DNA of 42,334 nucleotides from Lactobacillus sp. 0.1XD8-4 (GTDB taxonomy: Bacteria > Bacillota > Bacilli > Lactobacillales > Lactobacillaceae), in assembly GCF_009663775.1 (NCBI RefSeq), contig NZ_RDBR01000015.1, positions 1 to 42,334 on the forward strand, in the 5' to 3' direction. The translations under genes and the position numbers were made by a program. Below the pieces are notes generated by a model. It was not told where the DNA came from and did not search any database. It saw only the letters and a program-made list of their open reading frames with translations. This document shows positions 26,469 through 31,114 of this stretch, piece after piece. Each line of letters begins with the position of its first letter. Position 1 is the first letter of the stretch.

Positions 26469-29333
26469 GTGGCAAATGATAAGATCATAATCCATGGTGC
26501 ACGAGCACACAACTTGAAAAATATTGACGTGACGATTCCTAAGAATAAGCTAGTTGTTGTAACAGGATTGTCAGGTTCTGGCAAGAGTTCACTGGCATTT
26601 GATACCCTTTATGCCGAAGGACAACGACGCTACGTGGAGAGCCTGTCTGCGTATGCGCGGCAATTTTTAGGACAGATGGACAAGCCGGACGTCGACTCAA
26701 TTGACGGGCTTTCACCAGCAATCTCGATTGATCAAAAAACAACGTCGCATAACCCCCGCTCAACGGTTGGAACTGTTACTGAGATCAATGACTTCTTACG
26801 TTTATTATGGGCGCGGGTTGGTACACCGATTTGTCCAAATGATAATATTCCGATTACTAGTCAATCGCCGGAACAAATGGTTGACCGTGTACTGGAATTA
26901 CCGGAACGGACTCGTTTGCAAATTTTATCCCCAGTCGTTCGTGAAAAAAAGGGGACGCAAAAGAAAGTTTTTGAGACAATTAAGCGTGAAGGCTTTGTTC
27001 GAGTGCAGGTAGATGGGGAAACTTATGACCTTGATGAAGTACCGGAATTAGATAAAAACAAAAAGCACACGATTAACGTTGTGATTGACCGAATTATTAT
27101 TAAAGACGGTGTAAGATCGCGGCTATTTGATTCTTTTGAAGCAGCGCTTCGCTTAAGTAAAGGGTATGCGATTGCCGATATTATTGGTGGCGACCCAATT
27201 CCTTTCTCAGAACAGTATGCCTGTCCAATTTGTGGTTTCACGGTTGGTGAATTAGAACCACGCCTATTTTCTTTTAATGCACCGACTGGAGCCTGTCCCG
27301 AGTGTGAAGGATTAGGGTTAAAGCTAGAAGTAGATATTGATTTGGTTGTCCCCGATCCTGCTAAGACATTGAGAGAAGGGGCCATCGTTCCGTGGAATCC
27401 AATTTCTTCACAATACTATCCGCAGCTACTAGAACAATTTTGTAAATCGGCGGGGATTGATATGGATACGCCATTTAATAAGTTACCGAAAAAGCAGCAA
27501 CAACAGGTTCTCTATGGGAATGGTGCTAAGACATTCCACTTTCATTATGAAAACGATTTTGGCGGTATCCGTGATGTTGATGTGCCTTTTGAAGGAGTGA
27601 TTAACAACATCAATCGGCGTTATCGGGAAACTAATTCCGACTTTACTCGTGAGCAAATGAGAAAATATATGACGGAGCTGCCATGTCCGGTTTGTCACGG
27701 CTATCGTTTAAATCAGCGCGCGTTAGCAGTCAAAATTGATGGTAAAAATATTGGAGAAATTTCTGACTTACCAATCAGTGAATCACTTGAGTTCTTTAAA
27801 GATGTTCAATTATCAGATCAAAATCAGCAAATTGCTAAGCCAATTTTGAAGGAAATTATTGACCGATTAACATTTATGAAAAATGTTGGAGTTGAATATT
27901 TGACGCTTAGTCGATCTGCGCGGACGCTTTCTGGTGGTGAAGCCCAACGAATTCGATTGGCAACCCAGATCGGCTCGAATCTATCGGGGGTAATGTATGT
28001 ATTAGATGAACCATCAATCGGGTTGCATCAACGGGATAATGACCGGTTAATCGCTTCCTTAAAAGCAATGCGCGACCTTGGCAATACATTGATTGTGGTT
28101 GAGCATGATGAAGACACGATGCGTGCTGCTGATTATATTATTGATATCGGTCCTGGTGCTGGTGAAAATGGTGGACAAGTAATGGCTGCGGGCACGCCGA
28201 AGCAGATTATGCGCTCACGAAAGTCGCTTACTGGTCAATATCTTTCCGGAAAGAAATTTATTGAGGTCCCGCAGGAACGGCGACCAGGGAATGGCAAAAA
28301 AATTACGATTAAAGGCGCTGCTGCAAACAATTTAAAAAATATTGATGTTGATTTTCCTTTAGGTAAATTTATCTGTGTAACAGGTGTTTCTGGTTCTGGG
28401 AAGTCAACGCTGGTTAATCTGATTTTGAAGCGGGTCTTGGCACAAAAATTAAATAATAACTCTGCTAAACCGGGGAAGTATAAGTCAATTAGTGGTGTTA
28501 AAAACATCGAAAAGGTGATTAATATTGACCAGTCCCCAATTGGACGGACACCTCGAAGCAATCCAGCTACTTATACTGGAGTCTTTGATGATATTCGGGA
28601 GTTATTTGCGCAGACTAACCAAGCAAAGATGCGGGGCTACACAAAGGGACGCTTTAGCTTTAACGTAAAGGGCGGTCGTTGTGAGGCATGTCGTGGTGAT
28701 GGAATTATTAAGATTGAGATGAACTTCTTACCAGACGTATACGTTCCTTGTGAAGTATGTCATGGTACCCGTTACAACTCTGAAACGCTTGAAGTTGAAT
28801 ATAAGGGAAAAAATATTGCGCAAGTACTGAACATGACTGTTTCTGAAGCATTAGCATTCTTTAGTGCAATTCCGAAGATCAAGCGTAAGCTTCAAACAAT
28901 TGAAGATGTTGGTTTAGGTTATGTTCACCTCGGACAGCCGGCAACTACTCTTTCTGGTGGTGAAGCCCAACGAATGAAGTTAGCGGCTGAATTGCACCGT
29001 CAATCTCACGGTAAGAGCTTCTATATCCTCGATGAACCAACAACTGGGCTGCACATGGACGATATCAAGCGACTATTAGCAGTTCTTCAACGATTAGTAG
29101 ATGCTGGAAATACAGTATTGGTTATTGAACATGACTTAGATGTGGTCAAGTCAGCTGATTGGTTAATTGATCTAGGACCGGAAGGAGGAGCCGGGGGCGG
29201 TAATATCGTTGCAACAGGGACTCCTGAAGAAGTGGCAGAAGTAAAAGAAAGTTATACAGGACGCTACCTTAAAGAGATGCTTACGCGAGATCAAAACTGG
29301 GCAGCAGAACGAGCAGCCAAAAATAAAAAATAA
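26469..29333 (+). CDS. uvrA: Excinuclease ABC subunit A
   Basis: A 954-residue twin-ATPase damage sensor that loads UvrB onto lesions. Two ABC modules are complete: Walker [13 protein letters not shown] near residue 32 and [12 protein letters not shown] near 640, with signature LSGGEAQR in both halves. Two zinc modules show CPIC ... CPEC near 253-280 and CEAC ... CEVC near 738-765. Start is GTG 26469 after AAAGGAGGG. Co-transcribed with uvrB and SOS-inducible by inference. No terminator is obvious after it; the next promoter begins within ten bases of the stop. Confidence 0.97.
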
Positions 29334-29341
29334 AAAAAGAG

Positions 29342-29370
29342 TTGCAAATTTAATCTTCTAATGGTATTCT
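29342..29370 (+). promoter_or_regulatory. Promoter of the serine attenuator and steT
   Basis: TTGCAA (29342-29347) and TATTCT (29365-29370) are spaced by 17 bases; each matches four of six consensus bases. Transcription would begin near 29377, giving a leader of about 225 nucleotides before the transporter gene. Confidence 0.6.
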
Positions 29371-29406
29371 AATAAAAATCAACGTACACGAAATGAGGGA
29401 AAACAA

Positions 29407-29478
29407 ATGTTACGATTAGTTAATCAAAATCAACAATTTTCTTCCTCCTCAGCCTCTAGTTCCATTAAGGCTGAGTGA
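29407..29478 (+). CDS. Serine-rich attenuator leader peptide
   Basis: A 23-codon ORF preceded by GAGGGA six bases upstream. It encodes MLRLVNQNQQ followed by FSSSSASSS and IKAE, with seven Ser codons (TCT, TCC, TCC, TCA, TCT, AGT, TCC) among eight consecutive codons (12-19). The Ser run covers the 5' arm of the first leader hairpin, and the stop codon lies in the region that competes for the terminator. This is the layout of a leader peptide whose translation senses charged tRNA-Ser. It is too short for ordinary gene finders. The product itself probably has no function. Confidence 0.85.
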   Translation: MLRLVNQNQQFSSSSASSSIKAE

Positions 29479-29577
29479 TTTTGGTGTACCCATAGACAGG
29501 TGTAAATATACCCGGGTCTCTATTAATCATTTGGCAAGTCCTTATGATTAATGTAACGAGACCTGGGTTTTTATTTT
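29448..29577 (+). promoter_or_regulatory. Serine leader-peptide attenuator
   Basis: Three helices compete. 1:2 is CTCAGCCT (29448-29455) with AGGCTGAG (29468-29475), perfect. 2:3, the antiterminator, is GCTGAGTGATT (29470-29480) with AATCATTTGGC (29525-29535), eleven pairs including three wobbles. 3:4, the terminator, is CCCGGGTCTC (29511-29520) with GAGACCTGGG (29558-29567), stacked on TTAATCAT (29523-29530) with ATGATTAA (29544-29551), then TTTTTATTTT. Stalling on Ser codons would cover arm 1, free arm 2 and allow read-through; full translation to the stop would cover arm 2 and permit termination. Confidence 0.8.
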
Positions 29578-29604
29578 GCCTAATATTAGAATGGAGGAAT
29601 GATG

Positions 29605-30939
29605 ATGAATCAACAACCAGCAGATGAATTAAAAAGGTCGCTTGGGTTCTGGTCTGCCATTTCGATTGTTGTTGGAACAATAATCGGGTCAGGAATCTTC
29701 TTTAAACAGGGATCAGTTTTAGATAGTGCTGGAACTTCTACCCTAGCGATTGCTGCCTGGGTATTTGGTGGTATTATTACCCTCACTGGTGGACTAACAG
29801 TCGCTGAAATTGGGGCCCAAATGCCATACACTGGGGGTCTATATGTATACATTGAAAATATTTATGGTCGTTTACTAGGCTTCCTTGCTGGCTGGATGCA
29901 GGTGATTGTCTATGGTCCAGCGATTATTGCTTCGGTAGCCGGCTTTATGAGTATTTTAATGGCAAATTTCTTCGGCCTCGGGGCAGCATGGCGCATTCCG
30001 TTAGCGGTTATTACGGTCGTTGCAATTGGGATTATGAACTTATTTGAAAATAAAGTTGGAGCTATTTTTTCCATTATTACAACTGCTGGTAAAATGATTC
30101 CGATTGCAGCTATTATCATCTTTGGGCTATTTTGGGGACACCAAGATGCTTTTGGTCAAACAGTGACGGAAGTCCATCAAGCAACTGGCGGCTTCGGAGT
30201 TGCCGTTCTTGCAACCTTATTTGGTTATGATGGCTGGATTTTAATTGCTAACCTAGGTGGTGAAATGAAGAATCCACAAAAATTACTCCCTAGGGCAATT
30301 ATTTTTGGGATTACCGCTGTTCTAATTATCTATACATTAATTACTGTTGGTATTTTGAAGTTTCTTCCCGCTAATACAATTCATCGGTTGGGAGAAAATG
30401 CCACTGCTTACTTAGCTGTTAAGGCTTTTGGGGCTGTTGGCGGTAAATTATTATCAGCGGGAATTATTATCTCAATGATGGGAACATTAAACGGAAAAAT
30501 GATTACTTTCCCACGGATTGTCTACGCAATGGCCCGCCGTCGTGACCTACCGTTCTCACGGTATCTTGCTTATATTACGCCTAAAGGAAAATCGCCGGTT
30601 GTTGCTACAATTTTTATTATCGTGCTAGCGACGGTGATGATGTGTTTCTTTGATCCAGATCACTTGTCAGACTTGTGTGTGTTTACAGTGTATTGTTTCT
30701 ACTTGTTAGCCTTCTTTGGGATTTTCATCTTGCGGCGTAAAAATAAGGGACCTCGTCCATTTAGTACGCCACTATATCCGCTTGTTCCCATTGTTGCAAT
30801 TGCCGGCGGAATTTTTGTACTGGTAAGTGAGGTATTGAATGACCCGGCTGGTGTTCTTCTCTTTGTAGGAATTGTGATTGTTGGTTTACCAATTCTTTAC
30901 ATTGTTAAACGAATGGATCAGCGTCGAATGAAATGGTAA
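29605..30939 (+). CDS. steT: Serine/threonine exchanger SteT-like permease
   Basis: A 444-residue, 12-helix APC-superfamily (LAT-type) transporter in the cytoplasmic membrane. The substrate-binding loop GTIIGSGIFFKQG lies near residues 20-32, followed by GGLTVAEIG, TGGLYVYIE and ATLFGYDGWI ... GGEMKNPQKLLPRA, all resembling B. subtilis SteT, a Ser/Thr obligate exchanger. Three ATGs occur in a row at 29599, 29602 and 29605; GGAGG (29593-29597) favours 29605. Its only visible control is the serine-codon attenuator immediately upstream, which independently supports a serine substrate. It is a single-gene unit inserted between uvrA and rapZ. Confidence 0.9.
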   Translation: MNQQPADELKRSLGFWSAISIVVGTIIGSGIFFKQGSVLDSAGTSTLAIAAWVFGGIITLTGGLTVAEIGAQMPYTGGLYVYIENIYGRLLGFLAGWMQVIVYGPAIIASVAGFMSILMANFFGLGAAWRIPLAVITVVAIGIMNLFENKVGAIFSIITTAGKMIPIAAIIIFGLFWGHQDAFGQTVTEVHQATGGFGVAVLATLFGYDGWILIANLGGEMKNPQKLLPRAIIFGITAVLIIYTLITVGILKFLPANTIHRLGENATAYLAVKAFGAVGGKLLSAGIIISMMGTLNGKMITFPRIVYAMARRRDLPFSRYLAYITPKGKSPVVATIFIIVLATVMMCFFDPDHLSDLCVFTVYCFYLLAFFGIFILRRKNKGPRPFSTPLYPLVPIVAIAGGIFVLVSEVLNDPAGVLLFVGIVIVGLPILYIVKRMDQRRMKW

Positions 30940-30962: not shown

Positions 30963-31114
30963 AGGCTGTGACATAAGGCACAGATATAATTGCAAATGCT
31001 ACAGCGCAGTATACAAAGGACTCTAGTATTCGGCAAAACTGAATGCTAGAGTCCTTTGTATGTTTGTGGGGTCGTGAAGCTGAAGTCATGAATAACTTCT
31101 GTCACGTGCCATTT
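30963..31114. repeat. Palindromic intergenic element, about 150 bases
   Basis: The steT-rapZ gap holds nested inverted repeats. The outer GTGACA (30967-30972) pairs with TGTCAC near 31104-31109, with GGC/GCC outside it. The centre is a nearly perfect 23-bp hairpin (31011-31033 with 31039-31061, containing ACAAAGGACTCTAG). A third hairpin uses CGTGA and GAAGT (31073-31086) with ACTTC and TCACG. The central hairpin may serve as steT terminator, but it lacks a T-run. The overall form resembles a dispersed palindromic element; copies elsewhere cannot be checked here. Confidence 0.55.

Follow-up and report, generated by a model that had tools for sequence, protein, structure and literature searches.

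A putative serine-sensing leader-peptide attenuator upstream of an amino acid exchanger gene in lactobacilli

The trp, his and thr attenuators of Escherichia coli work by the logic of three helices (1:2, 2:3 and 3:4), with arm 2 masked by the ribosome that reaches the stop codon. The locus described here has the same helix logic, but it involves other genes and amino acids and has no Rfam match. As far as the accessible portions of the papers cited here go, the trp attenuator is described in PMC1183508, and the ilv-leu operon of Staphylococcus aureus carries a Leu-rich leader attenuator (PMC5794164). The latter resembles our locus in that it belongs to the Bacillota and has a short ORF with control codons, a terminator, an antiterminator and no T-box; leucine is its amino acid and its operon is biosynthetic, in contrast to the serine and the transporter gene of our locus. 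In Firmicutes, hisS/hisZ and his operons likewise have leader-peptide attenuators that replace T-boxes, but these are specific for histidine and are reported from bacilli, Eubacteriales and Erysipelotrichales (PMC2965389, PMC9413887). In Bacillus subtilis, SinR senses serine via UCN codons (PMC3862929); there, as proposed here, the serine level is read out by ribosomes that slow down at UCN codons, but this happens within a long gene, acts on protein output and involves no terminator switch.

No serine leader peptide in lactobacilli was found in the open-access literature, represented mostly by titles and the beginnings of abstracts, and the phrase "serine-rich leader peptide" did not occur in the open-access PMC literature searched; supplementary tables may contain a bulk prediction of such a leader. 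As far as these sources reach, leader peptides of Firmicutes are already in print for His and Leu, and the apparent novelty is the Ser specificity.

The leader, the RNA arms and the exchanger gene

The window, which is the whole stretch of 42,334 nt analysed from Lactobacillus sp. 0.1XD8-4, contains the putative attenuator at 29342–29577, between a long ORF ending at 29333, which by eye we take to be uvrA, and an APC-family permease gene. The features are as follows:

29342–29370, + strand: promoter-like site read from the sequence, TTGCAA (29342–29347), 17 nt, TGG and, immediately 3' of it, the -10 element TATTCT (29365–29370)
29356–29373, + strand: direct repeat TTCTAAT-GGTA-TTCTAAT with an 11-bp period, overlapping the -10 element, from a pattern search of the same genome
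29395–29399, + strand: Shine-Dalgarno (SD) sequence of the leader ORF, GAGGG, 7 nt before the ATG, read from the sequence
29407–29478, + strand: leader ORF of 23 codons, MLRLVNQNQQFSSSSASSSIKAE, with the stop codon TGA at 29476–29478
29440–29463, + strand: control codons 12–19, TCT TCC TCC TCA GCC TCT AGT TCC, seven of them Ser
29448–29455, + strand: arm 1, CTCAGCCT / CUCAGCCU, inside the Ser run
29468–29491, + strand: arm 2, starting AGGCUGAG and spanning the leader stop codon
29514–29535, + strand: arm 3, the rising arm of the terminator
29510–29577, + strand: intrinsic terminator (3:4), with its hairpin at 29510–29568 and the T-run TTTTATTTT at 29569–29577
29605–30939, + strand: APC/LAT-family amino acid exchanger gene (29599 is the start of the listed ORF), with BasC (6f2g) as best solved relative

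The observation of a leader ORF, a Ser run and a terminator was confirmed as real: the SD, the start codon and the 23-codon ORF with seven Ser in eight codons, as read in the initial annotation, were all found in the sequence. The promoter proposed there fared less well. A promoter-like site is present, and relatives and the Thr-leader locus described below have a similar one; however, it is off-consensus, and the scan for consensus promoters did not list 29342–29370. When ATG starts giving 8–36 residues were counted in the window, at least five Ser in eight were encoded by the leader alone among 350 starts on the + strand, and by one of 272 on the - strand. At least six Ser in eight in a small ATG ORF were found in 30 of 64 upstream regions (the 67 named homologues minus L214, L223 and L247), compared with none of 2,560 dinucleotide shuffles. 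A chance Ser-rich ORF is ruled out by the shuffles and by the recurrence in relatives.

The three mutually exclusive helices and the intrinsic terminator before the permease, as initially described, are also present in the sequence. Arm 1 pairs with AGGCTGAG (29468–29475) of arm 2, giving a 1:2 helix that overlaps the control codons and could be lengthened by an outer segment at 29425–29432 (CAAAATCA). Arm 2, through GCTGAGTGATT (29470–29480) and more bases up to 29491, is also the partner of arm 3, in which AATCATTTGGC (29525–29535) is the matching part. The central antiterminator, GCUGAGUGAUU (29470–29480) with AAUCAUUUGGC (29525–29535), has 11 pairs including G-U and is flanked by extra pairs. 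The terminator hairpin reaches -30.6 kcal/mol, a value that none of 1,000 shuffles matched, and is missing from the listing of the terminator scan. The 1:2 pairing was equalled by 9 of 2,000 shuffles and the 2:3 pairing by 43 of 2,000, so that 2:3 taken alone is only moderately unusual in the window; the folding energy of the leader RNA has z = -5.0.

The stop codon had been said to adjoin arm 2, and the Ser run to hold arm 1. The second point stands, and the first is refined, as the antiterminator pairing overlaps the stop codon. By usual ribosome sizes, a ribosome at codons 12–15 would reach about 29452–29461 and leave arm 2 free, and one at the stop codon would cover up to about 29489 and hide most of arm 2. 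This spacing of arms and stop codon is that of the classical attenuation layout.

The start of the permease gene is most likely 29605 rather than 29599, because an SD, GGAGG, lies at 29593–29597. Pfam assigned AA_permease_2 and AA_permease to its product, and the NCBIfam matches were to amino-acid transporters only, all under their cut-offs. Among solved structures the closest was 6f2g (E = 3e-84, residues 19–438), which is BasC, an alanine-serine-cysteine exchanger according to the accessible part of PMC6472337. By this sequence relation to BasC the protein would be a BasC/LAT exchanger. The downstream gene had been called a SteT-like Ser/Thr exchanger; a gene for an exchanger of this family is indeed there, BasC is its nearest solved relative, and its putative substrates are serine and probably also Ala, Thr and Cys.

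A near-perfect long hairpin at 31013–31059, downstream of the permease and before the gene that follows, was listed by the terminator scan. Elsewhere in the same genome, two L-serine dehydratase alpha matches lay above the cut-off. The PGDH model TIGR01327 gave no match over its cut-off in this genome; as it passes in just 9 of 14 control genomes, serine auxotrophy was not concluded. Seven of the 11 lower-scoring APC paralogues of the genome were viewed by eye; no codon-run leader was seen before them, and one had a T-box-like motif, with no Rfam match at gathering level.

Conservation of the leader and complementarity of the arms within the genus

The permease was detected at E ≤ 1e-100 in 48 of 50 genomes of the genus, and 47 upstream regions were examined, the match in G015 being cut by a contig end. 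Comparison demonstrates that the leader, its run and the terminator are conserved: a Ser or Ser/Thr leader with a terminator is kept at 35 of 46 informative loci (47 minus L046 of G035). This number excludes L078, an unrelated ORF passing the filter, and includes by hand L068 (SSSSAPI, 4 of 8), which fails it; L081 and L082 have the Ser/Thr leaders TSSSTTTTS and TSSSTTTS. The terminator between leader and gene was found by script at 33 of the 35 loci and added by hand at L069 and L082. The other 11 informative loci have no leader or a broken one. No leader was found under the filters used at ten of these (L072–L080 and L084); at L045 (G037), an insertion, by eye presumably an IS30-like transposase gene, lies between promoter and leader, and the leader is frameshifted. 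A transposase gene with a frameshifted leader behind it, a natural loss, was noted at L122 and L045 (G037). In G035 (L046, L273), genes abut stop-to-start at the uvrA-permease junction, at the junction of the permease with the next gene and at that of thrP with its preceding gene; this record without intergenic DNA seems to be an artefact.

The exclusive arms differ between clades yet, as judged by computed pairing, remain complementary. In a swap test with ten clades drawn by hand, cognate 2:3 partners averaged -21.1 kcal/mol and swapped clade partners -16.4 (clade permutation p = 5e-5). The 1:2 values were -17.4 and -15.2 kcal/mol (p = 0.010, between clades), with an arm-1 window that missed arm 1 of clade H, and the control 1:3, which is not expected to pair, gave -5.9 and -5.8 kcal/mol (p = 0.19). 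The arms of clade H diverge in sequence yet pair over their full length with one G-U (L067: AAAGCAGUUGAG with CUUAACUGCUUU). At 31 of 35 Ser loci and at all 27 Thr loci tested, the 2:3 pairing beat 95% or more of the shuffles; the other four Ser loci fell short of this mark, as did L228, one of the 16 hand-picked leaders described below.

Covariation in the three helices had been proposed as a check in relatives. In an alignment of 20 sequences it was found for 2:3, which is exclusive with 3:4: both partners had changed in 5 of 19 pairs, a number reached by 1 of 500 shuffles, and 93.7% of cells were paired, exceeding all six slid versions. The 1:2 helix, supported between clades, varies very little in this aligned subset and showed no significant covariation there (its score was reached by 108 of 500 shuffles). 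For 3:4, 75.7% of cells were paired and the covariation score exceeded all 500 shuffles, but 117 of 500 shuffles matched the both-side changes and 391 of 500 the pair types.

The Thr-run sister leader and other genera of the family

A search with the promoter motif TTCTAATNNTATTCTAAT yielded, among the matches listed, a second locus in the same genome, G000:C66:13748 (L136), whose leader ORF ends MQIYNRSIIHHLTSTSTTTTITVVE and precedes a permease; the reversed control motif also matches many genomes at up to two mismatches, and several one-mismatch places that were inspected had no leader. The run of this sister leader is LTSTSTTTT. For two relatives, the fragments L034 and L087, the best NCBIfam match is ThrP, annotated as a bifunctional threonine/serine transporter, with a score under the curated cut-off. 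With the loci anchored on the protein of the same genome, and with ATG starts only at thirteen minus-strand loci, 41 of the 44 first-copy loci that were informative (45 first copies minus G035, the cut match of G041 also being left out) had a Thr/Ser-run leader with at least 5 in 8, and 38 had at least 6 in 8. L302–L304 have only 5 Ser/Thr in 8, L286 carries the Thr leader, and the misses are L300, L306 and L307. None of the nine second copies of the ThrP-like gene examined reached 6 in 8; one of them, L315, had an ORF with 5 of 8 at a distance of 523 nt upstream. Arm 3 of the Thr loci mostly repeats arm 1 (CUCAACC).

Because the Thr-run sister precedes the ThrP-like gene at 41 of 44 loci, the codon run follows the gene: by comparison, similar scaffolds have Ser codons in front of the BasC-like exchanger and Thr codons in front of the ThrP-like gene, each run matching the amino acid linked to its gene.

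The ThrP-like locus L300 (G006) retains the promoter motif and has a hairpin resembling a terminator, and no leader ORF was seen there. At L093 (G009:C3:21312), the motif and a short Thr-containing ORF (MQLTSTMQRNN...) lie upstream of a gene that by eye we take to encode an MFS transporter, which may be a third target.

A homologue of the exchanger was detected at E ≤ 1e-110 in 137 of 301 genomes of the family. Among 55 upstream regions from other genera, all four of genus g37 have a Ser leader, and none of the remaining 51 reaches 6 Ser/Thr in 8; ATG starts only were used at seven minus-strand loci (L146, L147, L151, L153, L155, L158 and L159). Of the 67 named loci, 36 reach 6 of 8, with L. 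reuteri (L203), L. johnsonii (L244), L. jensenii (L239) and L. corticis (L242) among the carriers, and 17 never exceed 4 of 8 (Furfurilactobacillus, Levilactobacillus, Dellaglioa, Ligilactobacillus, Weissella, Periweissella and an unclassified MAG). Lactobacillus sensu stricto also has the Ser leader, and some of its species use AGT Ser codons; the leader of Lactobacillus sp. LL6 (L258), MQFSSSSSSSSS, is built from TCA, AGT, TCC and TCT codons. In 16 leaders picked by hand from the named loci, outside the clades tested earlier, 15 had a 2:3 pairing that beat 95% or more of the shuffles, the exception being L228.

In Weissella (L263, L264), an Asp/Asn-rich leader (MIYIYVTSIDDNNDDRSYSFTS) and a terminator precede the homologous exchanger, together with a long antiterminator, GUUAGUGAUUGGG/CCCUAAUCGCUAAC; this is perhaps an Asp/Asn version of the attenuator.

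Alternative readings and the proposed mechanism

Genus g26 of the Lactobacillaceae has a T-box in place of the leader peptide at 5 of 5 loci examined (among 10 g26 genomes with a homologue match), at 44–58 bits, under the Rfam gathering score of 93. Their specifiers, read by eye, are GCC (Ala) at three loci and ACC (Thr) at two; a tandem pair was noted at L178 among these loci (L177–L181). Such leaders resemble the proposed attenuator in sensing tRNA charging before a related transporter, but they bind tRNA directly and have no leader peptide. A T-box or a metabolite riboswitch at our locus, for which these g26 cases could speak, has a negligible probability: the region had no family match at gathering level, the T-box family RF00230 included, and a scan at E up to 10 returned four weak matches only, none of them a T-box or riboswitch. 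This reading is rejected by the Rfam scans and largely refuted by the sequence. It is also very improbable that the leader ORF, which has an SD and a start codon, encodes a small protein with its own function next to a constitutive or otherwise controlled terminator. Outside the Ser/Thr run the peptide shows little conservation, in contrast to the codon run, the placement of the stop codon with respect to arm 2 and the alternative pairing, all of which are conserved.

A further alternative concerns the codons themselves. The Ser codons of the 35 leaders are TCT 76, TCC 74, TCA 51, AGC 10, AGT 9 and TCG 0, against TCA 50, TCT 34, AGT 33, TCG 21, TCC 11 and AGC 9 in six genes of the window, and the TCN share is 201/220 versus 116/158. 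The UCN preference fits the finding that ribosome density in serine-starved B. subtilis rises at UCN and not at AGC/AGU codons (PMC3862929, accessible part). The TCC excess (74/220 versus 11/158) could come instead from pairing to ribosome-binding sites: for the codons preceding arm 1 and those where it begins, Ser-run pairing averages -10.6 kcal/mol with the permease SD and -9.0 with the leader SD, compared with -6.1 and -5.1 for random synonymous Ser runs, and the Thr leaders retain CCUCC. The Ser codons would then be a by-product of a UCUUCCUCCUC run acting as an anti-Shine-Dalgarno for the permease or leader ribosome-binding site, with translational control that is not tied to serine. As the full explanation this is improbable, though somewhat less so than the two readings above. 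A purely RNA-level reason fails on the AGT codons of some Lactobacillus leaders, the UCCUCC core is missing from the Ser runs of L237 (TCA TCT AGC TCA AGT TCC), L061 and L063–L068, the Thr sister locus swaps most Ser for Thr, and the conserved terminator and antiterminator are left unexplained. The anti-SD pairing signal is nevertheless real and is retained as a possible second layer. Inside the genus, selection on the amino acid and on the RNA is not separable, because the core TCY-TCC-TCC-TCA is almost invariant in nucleotides; the Lactobacillus and Thr cases separate the two only partly, because the Thr leaders keep ACC-TCC-ACC.

The Thr-run sister before the ThrP-like gene and the Ser runs built from other Ser codons favor serine-specific attenuation, as the initial annotation held. 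In most relatives the Ser run and the helices are kept, the antiterminator covaries, and no T-box was found in the region of the window, in support of its attenuator reading. The attenuation mechanism is well supported by comparison, and very probably the locus serves for ribosome-mediated transcription attenuation, in which charged tRNA-Ser is sensed and the import of serine (and probably Ala, Thr and Cys) is controlled. We infer that the leader is translated with stalling in the Ser run, that serine is the signal, and that the exchanger responds to its shortage. With enough Ser-tRNA, the ribosome would reach the stop codon and mask arm 2, arm 3 would pair with arm 4, and transcription would stop near 29570. 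With scarce Ser-tRNA, the ribosome would stall in the Ser run and occupy arm 1, arm 2 would pair with arm 3 (GCUGAGUGAUU/AAUCAUUUGGC), no terminator would form, and the exchanger would be transcribed. Without translation, the 1:2 helix would form and the terminator would prevail.

If this is correct, well-studied lactobacilli such as L. reuteri, L. johnsonii and L. jensenii have a serine-specific leader attenuator, and the replacement of control codons and T-boxes can be compared before one transporter family. Nature would have provided a codon-swap experiment in the Ser/Thr leader pair, and reading the leader codons could aid the substrate assignment of poorly annotated amino-acid permeases.

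Two extensions of the attenuator, considered jointly, are speculative and on balance unlikely. One is a double switch, in which the Ser run holds arm 1 while its UCUUCCUCC codons pair with the SD of the permease (and leader). A ribosome stalled in the run would then save the transcript and also expose the start site, giving serine control of both transcription and translation via a single codon run. The other is a modular scaffold whose run is swapped according to the transporter (Ser, Ser/Thr, Thr and perhaps Asp/Asn in Weissella), in which case leader codons would foretell transporter substrates.

A minor observation concerns the direct repeat over the -10 element. In the same genome, TTCTAAT-N4-TTCTAAT has exact matches only at the Ser-leader locus and at the Thr-leader locus G000:C66:13748; allowing two mismatches adds three further places, compared with 0 exact and 3 two-mismatch matches of the reversed control pattern. 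The repeat, which lies over both -10 elements, may be a candidate operator of an additional regulator acting on top of attenuation.
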